The translations under genes and the position numbers were made by a program. Below are positions 3,511 through 12,184 of a DNA stretch of 12,184 nucleotides, piece after piece (position 1 is the stretch's first letter; each line of letters begins with the position of its first letter). The stretch is from Clostridium sp. CAG:921. GTDB taxonomy: Bacteria > Bacillota > Clostridia > TANB77 > CAG-465. Where the stretch lies: NCBI GenBank assembly GCA_000433135.1, contig HF991961.1, positions 6,851 to 19,034 on the forward strand, read 5' to 3'. Under the pieces are notes generated by a model. It was given only the letters and a program-made list of their open reading frames with translations. It was not told where the DNA came from and ran no database searches.

Positions 3511-4527
3511 TTAAAACTTTTTTATCTTAACAGCATTCCCTGTTTCAAGTAATTCTACATGATTTAAAGCTTTTCCAGTTCCAGTAGCAACGCAAGATTG
3601 TGCATCTTCTGCTATCATAACTGGTATTCCGGTCCTTTCTTCTATTAGTTTATCAAGTCCCCAGACAAGACCTCCACCACCTGTTATATATATTCCTCTT
3701 TCTGAAATATCTGCAGATAATTCAGGTGGAGTTTCCTCTAATACTGAGTGAACTCCTTCTACTATCATGTTTGCACAATCTCGTAGTGCTTCATACGCCT
3801 CATCAGAAGTAACATCTATTTCAACAGGAAGTCCTGTTGAAATATCTCTTCCTTTTATGGTCATATACTCTACAGTAGGCTTTGGATACATGCATCCTAT
3901 ATTTATTTTAACATCTTCAGCTGTCCTTTCACCAATTACCACGTTTCTGTTTTTCTTTATGTACTTTACTATAGACTCATCAAACCTATCGCCAGCTATT
4001 TTAAGTGATGTACTTCTTACAGATCCACCAAGTGAAATAACAGCAATATCAGCAGTTCCTCCACCAATATCAACTATCATACTTCCATAAGGTTTCGTTA
4101 TATCAATTCCAGCTCCTATTGCAGCTGCTATTGGTTCTTCTATTAAATATACTCTTTTTGCACCTGCGTGAGTAGCAGCATCAATTACAGCTTTTTTTTC
4201 AACCTCGGTTACACATGACGGAACACAAATCATAATTTTTGGTGCAAATACAAACTTTCCACATACCTTAGTTATAAAATACTTAAGCATTTTTTCAGTT
4301 ATAGTATAATTTGATATTACACCATCTTTTAATGGACGTATGGCAACAATATTTCCTGGTGTTCGGCCAAGCATTTTTCTTGCTTCCTGTCCAACCGCTA
4401 AAACTTCATTCGTATTTTTATCTATTGCTACAACAGAAGGTTCTCTTAAAACAATTCCCTTCCCCTTTACATAAACAAGTATAGTAGCTGTCCCCAAATC
4501 AATTCCAATATCTTGTCCAAATACCAC
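3511..4527 (-). CDS. mbl: Mbl/MreB rod-shape actin homologue, 338 aa
   Basis: This is a bacterial actin of the MreB/Mbl family. Its ATP-dependent membrane-bound filaments organise lateral cell-wall synthesis with the elongasome. The sequence shows the phosphate-1 loop (DLGTAT, residues 10-15), the catalytic Glu in LIEEPIAAAIG (about 128-138), the phosphate-2 loop (VDIGGGTADIAV, 152-163), and the adenosine motif ITGGGGL (281-287). The block YMTIKGRDISTGLPVEID is typical of the family, and the length is normal. The start codon is GTG, with AGGAGG seven bases upstream. Choosing Mbl over MreB rests on position just downstream of spoIIID, as in Bacillus subtilis; there is no mreC or mreD here. The usual short spoIIID-mbl gap is enlarged by a repeat-flanked insertion, and mbl appears to have its own promoter. 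Confidence 0.95.
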   Translation of the reverse strand: MVFGQDIGIDLGTATILVYVKGKGIVLREPSVVAIDKNTNEVLAVGQEARKMLGRTPGNIVAIRPLKDGVISNYTITEKMLKYFITKVCGKFVFAPKIMICVPSCVTEVEKKAVIDAATHAGAKRVYLIEEPIAAAIGAGIDITKPYGSMIVDIGGGTADIAVISLGGSVRSTSLKIAGDRFDESIVKYIKKNRNVVIGERTAEDVKINIGCMYPKPTVEYMTIKGRDISTGLPVEIDVTSDEAYEALRDCANMIVEGVHSVLEETPPELSADISERGIYITGGGGLVWGLDKLIEERTGIPVMIAEDAQSCVATGTGKALNHVELLETGNAVKIKKF

Positions 4528-4583: not shown

Positions 4584-4637
4584 CATATAGTATAAAAGTT
4601 TAAAAAAATAAAAGGCTTTTTAGAGCAGATATAAAAA

Positions 4638-4743
4638 TTATATAAAACATCAAAAAAATGCGTATATTTTCTATATCAAAACTACTTTCATTTCTAATTT
4701 CTACTAATACTTTTTCCGTGTTGATACTTTAATTTTGTAGCCA
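4638..4743 (-). pseudogene. Orphan duplicate of the spoIIID 3' end (direct repeat copy A)
   Basis: This 106-bp stretch matches 5601-5706 without gaps and with 8 mismatches that I counted. On the minus strand it encodes the last 15 residues of SpoIIID (ATKLKYQHGKSISRN, then TAG) plus 56 bases of downstream sequence. No start codon or upstream spoIIID sequence precedes it; homology stops abruptly at 4743. It looks like one end of an insertion. It may be the original gene end left next to mbl, with the intact gene now completed by copy B. Confidence 0.88.
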
Positions 4744-4775
4744 ACAGTGTGACAAGTAACATTTGAAATTATATT

Positions 4776-5248
4776 TTACTTATTTAATAATATTTTCTTC
4801 ATTTCAACTATATCATAAAATGGTATTTGCACATCGTCTTTTGCTAAATCAACCACTCTTAATGCTTTAGTAATTACCTTTTTTTATAATTTCTGGTATT
4901 TCAACATCCATATTAGAATTTGTATATTTCTTTTCTATGTAATCTAATGTTGTTGGAAATATATTTTGTATAAAAAAAACAGCTTTTTTTCCTAAAGCAC
5001 TGCCAAAGACAAAGTTATATACTGACTTCTTCCCACTTTTTGCCTTTTTTTTCATGAATTTTTTCATGCTTTTCATATTTAGTAGAAATTGGAACAAATC
5101 ATATTATTTTGCTATTTTGTCTATTTTTAAAGCAAAAATAGCAAGGTCTCTTATTGTCATTTTCTTTGTTAACCATTAATCCATAATCTTTAAATACATT
5201 AAAAAATCCATCTTTTATAAAATAAAATTTGCCATCTTCTATTACCAT
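4776..5248 (-). pseudogene. Decayed type III toxin gene, ToxN/AbiQ superfamily (CptN/TenpN-like)
   Basis: Intact members are endoribonucleases held in check by a repeat RNA antitoxin. The reading frame starts at ATG 5248 (MVIEDGKFYFIKDGFF) behind AAAGGAG and runs through NKENDNKRPCYF. It hits TGA at 5099-5101, exactly where the family pattern W-F/I-x-P-I-S needs Trp; the next residues are FVPISTKYEK. A run of eight A (5045-5052) then shifts the frame, and reading resumes as FGSALGKKAVFFIQNIFP. A second shift at a run of seven A (4879-4885) leads to the final segment ending KKILLNK and TAA at 4776. Removing one A from each run and reading the TGA as a codon gives 156 residues, a normal family length. 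Two sub-frames (4867-5097 and 5099-5320) are fragments of this one gene. Family assignment is from memory of motifs. Confidence 0.72.
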
Positions 5249-5271
5249 TTTGCTCCATCTCCTTTTTATGA

Positions 5272-5305
5272 AAATATGGGATCTACTTTTATAGACCCCA
5301 TATTT
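5272..5305 (-). terminator. Hairpin between putative antitoxin RNA and toxin gene
   Basis: AAATATGGG (5297-5305) pairs perfectly with CCCATATTT (5272-5280) on the minus strand. An inner five pairs include one G-U, the loop is six bases, and only a short U run follows. It lies just before the toxin ribosome binding site. Type III loci carry a leaky terminator in exactly this position, which sets the RNA to toxin ratio. Confidence 0.62.
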
Positions 5306-5404
5306 AACTATAATTAACATTTTTCCACTTGCACATTTGTATCCCGCAAGCAGAGTTGCAACTCACATTTTAATTATAGCAGATATTAAATATCTACTAC
5401 TATT
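5306..5404 (-). ncRNA. Structured RNA in antitoxin position (CptI/ToxI-like candidate)
   Basis: From a predicted start near 5404 the transcript forms a 10-bp closing stem (ctataattaa 5308-5317 with ttaattatag 5370-5379). Inside the 52-base interior are a perfect 12-bp palindrome GAGTTGCAACTC (5353-5364) and a second small stem, cttgc/gcaag (5328-5332 with 5346-5350). It is followed by the terminator and the toxin gene. Active type III antitoxins have tandem repeats of a few tens of bases; only one such unit is evident here, so it may be reduced or decayed. The call depends on the neighbouring toxin. Confidence 0.5.
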
Positions 5405-5410
5405 ATATTC

Positions 5411-5439
5411 GTTATACACGTATTTTATCATTTTTTCAA
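5411..5439 (-). promoter_or_regulatory. Promoter of the putative toxin-antitoxin locus
   Basis: On the minus strand TTGAAA (5434-5439) is followed after 17 bp by TATAAC (5411-5416). A second -10-like TATAAT lies a few bases further on. It is placed to transcribe the structured RNA and then the toxin remnant. Confidence 0.55.
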
Positions 5440-5600
5440 GAGTTTTTTTAATTTTTCATCTATAATTTAAGTTTCTAGTTACTGTTCAGCAGAAAAATAA
5501 AATAACAAAAAAGAATGTTACAAAATTATATAAATAAAATATATGTAAACTTTATATAGACTACTCCCTCTTACTTTTTATTTCATTTATTTTGAAACTT

Positions 5601-5706
5601 TTATATAAAACATCTAAATGATGTGTATATTTTCTATATCAAAACTACTTTCATTTTTAATTTCTACTAACACTTTTTTCGTGTTGATACTTTAATTTCG
5701 TAGCCA
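5601..5706 (-). repeat. Direct repeat copy B, containing the 3' end of intact spoIIID
   Basis: This is the partner of 4638-4743, same orientation, equal length, about 92% identical. It spans the last 15 codons and the stop of spoIIID plus 56 bp downstream. Differences inside the coding part are few (a Gly/Glu and an Ile/Val change, and TAG versus TAA), so both copies derive from a functional spoIIID end. Confidence 0.88.
5610..5624 (-). terminator. Weak hairpin after spoIIID
   Basis: A 5-bp stem (acatc/gatgt, 5-base loop) about 30 bp after the spoIIID stop is followed by UUUAUAU on the minus strand. In repeat copy A the same hairpin is broken by substitutions. It is a weak terminator at best. 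Confidence 0.3.
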
Positions 5707-5920
5707 TTCCTCCTCTTATATGTCTTTCAGATTTATTTATTTCTAATACCTTTTTGGCTTCGATCGCAAGCGAAGGATTTATTTTCTCTAGTCTTTCTGA
5801 TATATCCTTATGTACTGTTGACTTGCTAATATTAAATTTCTTGGCTGTTTGTCTTACTGTGCTTTTTGTTTCTATTATGTATATAGCAAGAATTTTGACT
5901 CTTTTTTCTATATCAGTCAT
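5657..5920 (-). CDS. spoIIID: SpoIIID, mother-cell sporulation transcription regulator, 87 aa
   Basis: SpoIIID is a small DNA-binding protein that, in the mother cell, switches sigma-E-dependent genes on or off and helps bring on sigma-K. The sequence matches the family along its length. It has a helix-turn-helix at about residues 20-43 (STVRQTAKKFNISKSTVHKD) and the conserved block ERHIRGGMATKLKY (65-78). The B. subtilis protein is a few residues longer, differing mainly in the tail. The start at 5920 has AAAGGAG seven bases upstream. It lies 69 bp after the spoIIQ-like gene on the same strand. Its last 15 codons lie inside direct repeat copy B, so the present gene end may have been supplied by the inserted segment. 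The reading frame is intact and all conserved parts are present. Confidence 0.97.
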   Translation of the reverse strand: MTDIEKRVKILAIYIIETKSTVRQTAKKFNISKSTVHKDISERLEKINPSLAIEAKKVLEINKSERHIRGGMATKLKYQHEKSVSRN

Positions 5921-11800: not shown

Positions 11801-12184
11801 AAAGTTTCATTATTTATTCCGCTTTCATTTATTTTATTAATCGAAATTTTATATATTTCACTATATTTTTTATTTTTTATATCACTTTTTGCAGCGCTAT
11901 GATTACTTGCTGTAGATGCCACTGCACCTTGATACTTATAACTTGCTCCATCAATTTTATATACAACGTCTTTTTCTTCTTTATATTTCTCACTTAATAT
12001 TTCAACTGGTATATCTTTACTAAATCCTGTTGATGTAGTCACGAGATGCTTTAAAATATTATCATTTGCATCTACAAATTGTACATCTACAACTCTTGGA
12101 GTAAAATATATATCAAGAGTTATTCCTCTTGTATCTTGATCTGGCTTAAATTTAATTAAACTAGTATTAATATCACTTAACTTA
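8887..12184 (-). CDS. Giant beta-rich, probably surface-exposed protein, N-terminus outside window
   Basis: The frame is open to the right edge, so about 1098 residues are visible and the true start is beyond the window. An internal GTG at 12042 is only the first usable start codon inside the window, and it has no convincing ribosome site. The family is not recognised. The visible N-terminal region (about 1-310) begins VVDVQFVDANDNILKH and ends TTYVDFFYT, with Tyr/Lys/Thr-rich segments between, resembling Gram-positive MucBP-like or repeat adhesin domains. A Cys-Pro hinge follows (GVPPCDKPEKCPVPGTTPEP, nt about 11195-11256). The remaining 770 residues are Asn/Ser/Thr/Asp-rich with predicted beta structure. 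There is no membrane segment, LPXTG motif or cell-wall repeat at the C-terminus (ends NRAANDFE), so it may be secreted or held from its N-terminus. It ends at its own terminator, separate from the sporulation cluster. Confidence 0.8.
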   Translation of the reverse strand, partial: KLSDINTSLIKFKPDQDTRGITLDIYFTPRVVDVQFVDANDNILKHLVTTSTGFSKDIPVEILSEKYKEEKDVVYKIDGASYKYQGAVASTASNHSAAKSDIKNKKYSEIYKISINKINESGINNETLKYGGDYSIVRYKFYKIAKSKVYVRHFVETTKEYATYSRVVDGATKYYKLANEILSNPTQVVTHNSKYYNVSIVNDKNDNSTIEVKGGENDKPLHNTSVDIIDSNNSKEGYGEYYEIESTDTLNVEKSRSVYKLAAKYECVGYTKYNNQKDEKSTAMVNSQEVNISGKNTTTYVDFFYTNDGGVPPCDKPEKCPVPGTTPEPKTYIDVENKDGETINANAVDESSKCKVAYVPITEYVRPYLQTTTVSPYTLVYKLTGVTNEGKKIYTIEEYDAYQLVGGYISNKDDEDGKAKFVSTGSDGVINSNGKFDLTLNDILQAQNTEKLFSNIDPKDKDAINAAVKSLPTTTKENFKNINNKQRVNEDKFNGVRTPNGVAMYDIVGVVGDNKGKVLHKNIESVSSDENTTKINVYTPLKVEKPEIKMKDSYVDHSVGSLDGSVIEKNSEFTVVPKLDLSYTGTVYNKNINISNYLKNYWVILDFKVSNVRVYTSDGKLYKEYGMLDSNTKIEVPSGGRVDAKEASGTTASSVTGNIKVIACTKNANTVLTNTVINNNTSLTATSTKSSTGLLSIIANTEINSNATSCDEKNPSKNHVIDVDGTKKNVLYEDGASNKIEMEADSLYYAQNTAKIITLDRIYDFKVTDCLDVNFKNVFRKSIDDNVNESTGIYYFSGIKRLIVSKNGESQGSNVIETRSDSVLNKISTKAILPLGPAKHVDSSYLQAPKLGYRFSFDLKTAGSYTPGNGATRTIVIKPSYYYISKDGTTFNDNVVLYYKNSSGKYVTFEGSNYDIYFKPNDGYRATQDILDSTMNTGKLSDKLQKLSIGSKNGFTLTENMMSYYQDPSYIQTWYGEFKLPNSTIVVDKNNNDINKPLTNGYIGVKFNIECITKQKDTTIIIGYDQNDRDSSGNEILNTTQWDYEGYLGIQSGRNFSGDLRIQLENGVWRIKDQNTYNKVRGTVILYDTDNRAANDFE

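Follow-up and report, generated by a model that had tools for sequence, protein, structure and literature searches.

How did direct repeats of the spoIIID 3′ end come to bracket a decayed CptIN toxin-antitoxin module in Clostridium sp. CAG:921?

How does the 3′ end of spoIIID come to stand twice ahead of mbl, with the remains of a toxin-antitoxin module in between? The question is raised by a 12,184-bp stretch of DNA from Clostridium sp. CAG:921 (contig HF991961.1), referred to here as the window. The order on its minus strand, on which all features given below in the form start..end are located, is spoIID, an M23 peptidase gene, spoIIID, repeat copy A, an insert, repeat copy B, and mbl. The spoIIID gene (5657..5920) is intact, with 87 codons and a Pfam SpoIIID match of 3.7e-36, and its right-hand neighbor mbl (MreB-like; 3511..4527) has a Pfam MreB_Mbl match of 2.1e-139. 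Copy A (5601..5706) comprises the last 2 bases of spoIIID codon 72, codons 73–87, the stop codon, and 56 bp of downstream DNA. Copy B (4638..4743), on the mbl side, is a relic of the spoIIID 3′ end. The copies are direct and gap-free, with 8 mismatches in 106 bp (92% identity), 857 bp between them, and a spacing of 963. The first-pass annotation had described two such copies, each with the last 15 codons of spoIIID plus downstream DNA, and both descriptions were reproduced. The repeat is also far above chance: it scores 143 bits versus 36.3 for the best of 400 cross-locus control pairs, a comparison from which one control pair (125 bits; two species sharing a single site) was left out. When the flanks were widened, one of 150 control pairs reached 103 bits because both of its members hold spoIIID, and the next best reached 44.1.

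The mismatches are scattered across the whole repeat, and, judged by their differences, the two copies look like alleles. An Ile in copy B, where copy A has Val, is also found in P0004 and P0011, which are SpoIIID proteins at 97%–98% identity. The Gly of copy B is absent from all 12 full-length near-identical SpoIIID proteins (P0001–P0012), so copy B may simply have decayed. Copy B continues into DNA that can be aligned to the region upstream of mbl in relatives. The 56 bp behind the spoIIID stop codon have no counterpart among the aligned relatives, in which a single spoIIID end is followed by a short gap. As a separate observation, the SpoIIID proteins P0013 and P0014 are almost the same as that of the window, with C-termini that differ after KLKYQH and after MATK; these could stem from separate events at this gene end or from errors of assembly.

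What lies between the copies? The insert (4744..5600; 857 bp) is almost certainly a dead CptIN type III toxin-antitoxin module. It has a promoter-like stretch for the antitoxin (5400..5439; TTGAAA and TATAAC, read by eye), a single antitoxin repeat (5316..5371) that resembles the 48-nt tandem repeats of locus L090 and the repeats of other loci, a terminator-like hairpin at the antitoxin/toxin boundary (5272..5305; inverted repeat I20 and fold), and a CptN toxin pseudogene (4776..5248; tblastn) with one in-frame stop codon and two frameshifts. The tblastn pieces of the toxin (5248–5036, 5073–4894, and 4877–4779) lie in three frames and cover most of residues 1–158 of a complete relative, and residues 1–71 are 75% identical to P0181. 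Two pieces of the insert match NCBIfam NF047359 (7.7e-13 and 1.1e-10); each alone scores under the cut-off of 90 bits because the gene is broken. In short, a CptN match is present, the toxin gene is not open, and there is one antitoxin repeat only. Rfam gave no matches over the window at E ≤ 1, so the antitoxin was recognized by comparison only. The first-pass annotation had called the middle unrelated sequence; the NF047359 matches reveal a recognizable decayed CptIN module instead, and ~140 bp adjoining copy A, including the left joint, are without a recognized relative. There is no recombinase or integrase between the repeats, where the four listed ORFs are two CptN pieces and two frames of 41–42 aa without a Pfam match. 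Pfam also gave no match for six further ORFs of the window, and the only PADLOC match was a weak one to AbiQ (0.0019), for the relative's toxin only.

Two further features of the window can be recorded here. A 389-aa ORF (1174–2343), rich in cysteine, Ser/Thr, and Pro and without a Pfam match, has a composition unlike its AT-rich surroundings, as judged by eye. Behind copy A, GAAATAAAAAGTAAGAGGGAGTAGTCTA (5557–5584) resembles a stretch before yabG in genome G141 (86% over 28 bp; E = 1.6e-4).

Is the interval between spoIIID and mbl a site of insertion, as had been claimed? It was compared across a sample of 36 genomes from the family of nearest relatives, 27 of which have spoIIID and mbl on one contig among the matches listed; 9 of the 36 do not. 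The gap, sized from match ends and accurate to a few tens of bases, is about 50–134 bp in 19 of the 27 relatives, in agreement with an insertion in the window, and 273–3437 bp in the other 8. Five of these 8 larger gaps contain ORFs of 244–610 aa. Our reading assigns the L132 ORF to the AAA-type ATPases, that of L133 to a repeat protein that has a tandem copy, that of L134 to the nucleosidases, and that of L135 to the Ig-like proteins; the L136 ORF has no assigned identity. The gaps of L137 and L150 hold short frames only, and in L138 mbl is preceded by two successive spoIIID-like genes. The larger gaps thus contain different genes, and the spoIIID-mbl gap tolerates insertions. The repeat of the window is absent from all 8 larger gaps; the sole repeat beside a spoIIID end, in L133, is part of the tandem gene copy. 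In L139 of genome G017, a second SpoIIID-like gene (1673–1906) is 46% identical and has last codons that are nearly identical in DNA to those of the true spoIIID (93% over 41 bp in comparison with the window).

How is the insert joined to copy B? A truncated antitoxin-like repeat downstream of the toxin (4734..4766) continues into copy B and aligns to locus L190. Within it, the candidate illegitimate joint TGGCTACAAA (4734..4743) is common to the downstream repeat and spoIIID and is 9/10 identical to L190. Antitoxin-like repeats are present behind the toxin in L189, L190, and L191, too. Aligned to the first downstream repeat of L190, the end of the insert plus ten bases of copy B scores 21, which 0 of 1000 shuffles reach; minus the ten copy-B bases, the score is 13, reached by 1 of 1000 shuffles. 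The alignments to L189 and L191 are not above shuffles (302 of 1000 and 65 of 1000 reach the score), and the downstream repeat is recognized from one relative, L190. These alignments suggest that the joint between the insert and copy B is an illegitimate join at a 10-bp microhomology.

Across the same order, many loci have CptIN modules with 67%–85% DNA identity. With window positions 4600–5800 as the query, 100 of 385 genomes match at E ≤ 1e-20, some by spoIIID only. From these, 60 loci were taken, mostly best matches, together with L090. A toxin match is present in 60 of the 61; L225, which has none, was dropped as a CptIN locus. How often is such a module flanked by repeats? A direct repeat of >45 bits within 400 bp of the module is found in 4 of 56 usable CptIN loci, the window included: the window (143 bits), L186 (124 bits), L185 (93 bits), and L209 (46 bits; 44 bp at 82%). 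L185 and L186 (G135/G254) represent one site in two species, where CptIN lies between 102-bp copies of the 3′ end of another gene. The repeats have identities of 90% in L186 and 81% in L185, the copies are 824 bp apart in L186, and the repeat consists of the 3′ end and terminator of a 118–119-aa gene in the same orientation as in the window. The upstream gene is strongly divergent between the two species (44% protein identity), in contrast to the conserved downstream copy; in L183, the module and the second copy follow a different upstream gene. At the L186 locus, the downstream gene is conserved, the adjoining stretch is variable, and only 4 of 243 genomes have the 119-aa gene, which leaves this case without a clean empty site. 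Other candidates were rejected as repeats of the window's kind: the 168-bp repeat of L189 is the spoIIID 5′ end, the 591-bp repeat of L210 is two paralogous genes, and the repeats of L196 and L231 are duplicated promoter-like and terminator-like stretches, respectively.

A second pattern among these loci is linkage. CptIN is linked to spoIIID or to one particular recombinase in 16 of the 60 non-window loci (L172, L173, L174, L189, L190, L191, L192, L195, L197, L198, L207, L208, L210, L211, L215, and L217). L173 was counted via the contigs of G141, and L210 was kept for a 94% recombinase fragment; L177, L178, L180, L181, L182, L184, L205, L220, and L223 were dropped because their recombinase matches are only 24%–30%. 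In the toxin tree, the window groups with L173, L215, L172, and L174, all of which are spoIIID-linked; its clade also has L182 and L187, in which no spoIIID link was seen. The CptIN closest to that of the window in the tree is L173, from G141. In G141, CptIN, yabG, and veg lie in that order behind an intact spoIIID, all on one strand, with no 3′ relic; the arrangement extends across two contigs that overlap by 24 bp and that we infer to be adjacent. Over 92 bp, the promoter region of the window's CptIN shares 93.5% identity with its counterpart in L174, a locus inside an element that splits spoIIID; L187 is next at 90%.

What are the elements that split spoIIID? Their recombinase is a 510-aa protein with Resolvase, Recombinase, and zinc ribbon domains. 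Of 385 genomes of the order, 52 have a match to it at E ≤ 1e-90, and in 50 of these the identity is ≥89% (89%–95%), some of the matches being partial only. A SpoIIID C-terminal half lies directly behind the recombinase in 28 of 30 loci opened, including L278 (48%) and L295 (with stops), and the contig ends within 160 bp in the other 2. Among 20 longer stretches, 9 include both spoIIID halves, separated by an element of 4.8–11.2 kb (element loci L270–L299, L309–L328, and L174). Both halves contain GTACACAAAGAT, or a sequence close to it, as their common core, and the element terminates in inverted arms, which in typical members read ACCGTTACGAAAAGTAAC and GTAACACTAAAGAACGGT. When the halves are joined at the core, an in-frame SpoIIID of 81–94 residues results for all 9 of the 9 elements whose two halves lie on a single stretch; lengths are counted from the match start, which is not always a start codon. 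Element cargo includes CptIN, and an ORF in the L311 element has been read as relaxase-like. The split site is equivalent to codons 35–40 of the window's spoIIID, ~35 codons upstream of the 3′-end stretch that is repeated in the window. The att-core equivalent in the window (5802..5817) is uninterrupted and has 3 mismatches to CAGTACACAAAGATGT.

Do genomes with the element have another spoIIID? The 3′ half is present in 22 of 22 element genomes, as is the 5′ half with the element tail (in G101, in two frames), a count that draws on 12 of 12 further 5′ halves with the tail. Exactly two SpoIIID matches are present in 19 of the 22; the other 3 have a third at 47%–51%, one with a stop. No open, uninterrupted spoIIID orthologue was seen in the 22 genomes, whose assemblies may be incomplete, and hence SpoIIID there seems to depend on excision. 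In L189 and L192, oriented so that the toxin reads on the plus strand, a 5′ spoIIID relic that extends up to the att core is followed by CptIN and an intact spoIIID. These two loci are mirror images of the window and apparent escapes from the element. The 36 family genomes have no recombinase at high identity (best full-length match 35%, one partial match 43%). Window-clade 5′ halves of SpoIIID that carry the element tail do occur in the protein database (P0241, P0242, P0243, P0245, and P0246), and the start of P0241 resembles the intact SpoIIID P0051. The window itself has no spoIIID-splitting element: spoIIID is intact, there is no recombinase, and there are no att arms beside the gene, the only place within 4 mismatches of an att arm being a chance-like one at 11808. 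A search of open-access papers found no report of an element in spoIIID.

How, then, might the repeats have arisen? We tentatively favor, at a little short of an even chance, the entry of spoIIID-linked CptIN DNA by recombination with homology at one end and an illegitimate join at the other, with copy B as the native end. The arriving DNA would have had CptIN already behind a spoIIID gene. On one side, a homologous crossover would have occurred inside the resident spoIIID; on the other, an illegitimate join would have used the ~10 bp match, visible in the DNA, between the post-toxin antitoxin-like repeat and spoIIID codons 72–75. Copy A, at the end of the intact gene, would consequently be of incoming origin, and copy B, beyond the module, would be what is left of the resident 3′ end. 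In effect, one-sided homology would have given an insertion with a long duplicated target, and no integrase would have acted at the spot. The linkage observed between CptIN and spoIIID could go back to CptIN being a common cargo of, or a remnant from, the serine-recombinase elements. Of the earlier proposal that a replacement end was brought in, the incoming end is retained here as copy A and the att integration is not. This explanation is supported by G141, which shows the donor arrangement, by L173 as the closest CptIN, and by L185/L186, which have the same geometry, as well as by the CptIN cargo, the short gaps in relatives, the match at the joint, the allele-like copies, and the linkage in 16 of 60 loci. 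It is weakened by the unexplained left joint and ~140 bp, by a downstream repeat known from L190 alone, by the presence of flanking repeats in only 4 of 56 loci, and by the clade-mates L182 and L187, which are without a spoIIID link. One-sided homology would need one event, and it would account for both the allele-like copies and the joint.

It is possible, although unlikely, that the window is instead the scar of an element that once split spoIIID here. An illegitimate crossover between a rearranged and an unrearranged chromosome would leave CptIN between an intact gene upstream and a displaced 3′ half downstream, and a microhomology deletion would then take the recombinase and the first part of the half. 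Such a history would match the order and strand of CptIN-carrying elements (5′ half, CptIN, recombinase, 3′ half) and would account for the spoIIID linkage; the mirror cases L189 and L192, the window-clade 5′ halves with the element tail, and the promoter region closest to that of L174, within such an element, all point the same way. Nevertheless, the window has no recombinase and an att arm only at the chance-like place, no high-identity recombinase is found in the 36 family genomes, and copy B begins at codon 72 rather than at the att core, so that a second deletion would be needed.

A plain CptIN insertion with a long target duplication, illegitimate at both ends and next to spoIIID by chance or because the gap tolerates insertions, is improbable. 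The geometry is indeed shared by L185/L186, where the gene is a different one, and 8 of 27 relatives have 273–3437 bp in the gap, but chance does not explain why 16 of 60 CptIN loci are linked to spoIIID or the recombinase. Still harder to credit is a local tandem duplication of the spoIIID end whose middle later decayed or was inserted into: the repeats are gap-free, and copy B, with its 8 differing sites, is no longer a gene end in use, but the middle is a recognizable module with relatives at many other loci.

The first-pass annotation had proposed that an element integrates via an att site in the spoIIID 3′ end and had suggested a search for longer integrase-carrying elements bounded by the same repeat. 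None was found: a search of IMG/VR viral contigs for the 28-base repeat core gave 0 exact matches, and the 106-bp repeat gives 17 short matches in the 36 family genomes, none covering more than 59 of the 106 bases. A search of phage DNA gave one 71% spoIIID match, in an unannotated fecal contig, and none in near mode, and a search of plasmid DNA gave no match. Three viral contigs have SpoIIID relatives at 51%–56%, and a scan of viral contigs found no relative of the spoIIID-splitting recombinase. It is therefore very improbable that an element carrying a replacement end integrated site-specifically at the 3′ end of spoIIID: the repeat does span a gene 3′ end and a replacement end is plausible, but there is no integrase between the repeats and no att structure, the mismatches are scattered over the repeat, the joint is explained by the antitoxin-like repeat with its 10-bp microhomology, the core has no exact match in the viral contigs and the repeat no long match in the family genomes, and the order's recombinase acts at a different site and has no relative in the scan of viral contigs. 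One-sided homology and the scar of a splitting element both make a 3′-end att site unnecessary.

Do known systems behave in similar ways? First, the CptIN family of type III toxin-antitoxin systems is described in PMC5086642. As in the systems described there, the window has an NF047359 toxin, an antitoxin repeat, an intervening hairpin, and an upstream promoter-like stretch; unlike them, the window copy is dead, with a single antitoxin repeat and a broken toxin. Second, restriction-modification genes insert with a long, variable target duplication, according to PMC3031569. The window resembles those insertions in being a small selfish module with long direct target repeats and no recombinase of its own, and it differs from them in its type III toxin-antitoxin cargo, in a joint that lies in a match to a repeat of the cargo, and in having a gene 3′ end as the target. 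Third, homology-facilitated illegitimate recombination, as defined in PMC3240628, combines one homologous and one illegitimate end, as is proposed for the window. Unlike that process, the window case is reconstructed from sequence rather than observed, and microhomology is seen at the copy-B joint. Fourth, sporulation genes are interrupted by intervening elements: skin in sigK, gin in gerE (PMC5595907), and SPβ in spsM, nearly all such elements being in mother-cell-specific genes (PMC6957869). What the related genomes share with these cases is a serine-recombinase element that splits the gene for a mother-cell regulator; unlike in these cases, the target is spoIIID, and the gene in the window is intact with no element left. 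The window could conceivably be a fossil of a developmental spoIIID rearrangement, in which SpoIIID would be made only after a small serine-recombinase element had been excised from its gene and an accidental crossover between rearranged and unrearranged chromosomes let the host escape and left an intact gene, CptIN cargo, and a displaced half gene. This rather doubtful reading would group the window, with its 3′ relic, with L189 and L192, with their 5′ relics, as such escapes.

What are the implications of these repeats? The repeat is a genetic scar, with a toxin-antitoxin cassette at a gene 3′ end, a target of ~100 bp duplicated, and no integrase, and one further site in the order has this geometry. 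It also pointed to a widespread element that splits spoIIID. If excision of that element is developmental, spoIIID would join sigK and gerE as regulator genes that are repaired by DNA rearrangement, and the question of how hosts lose such elements would become testable.
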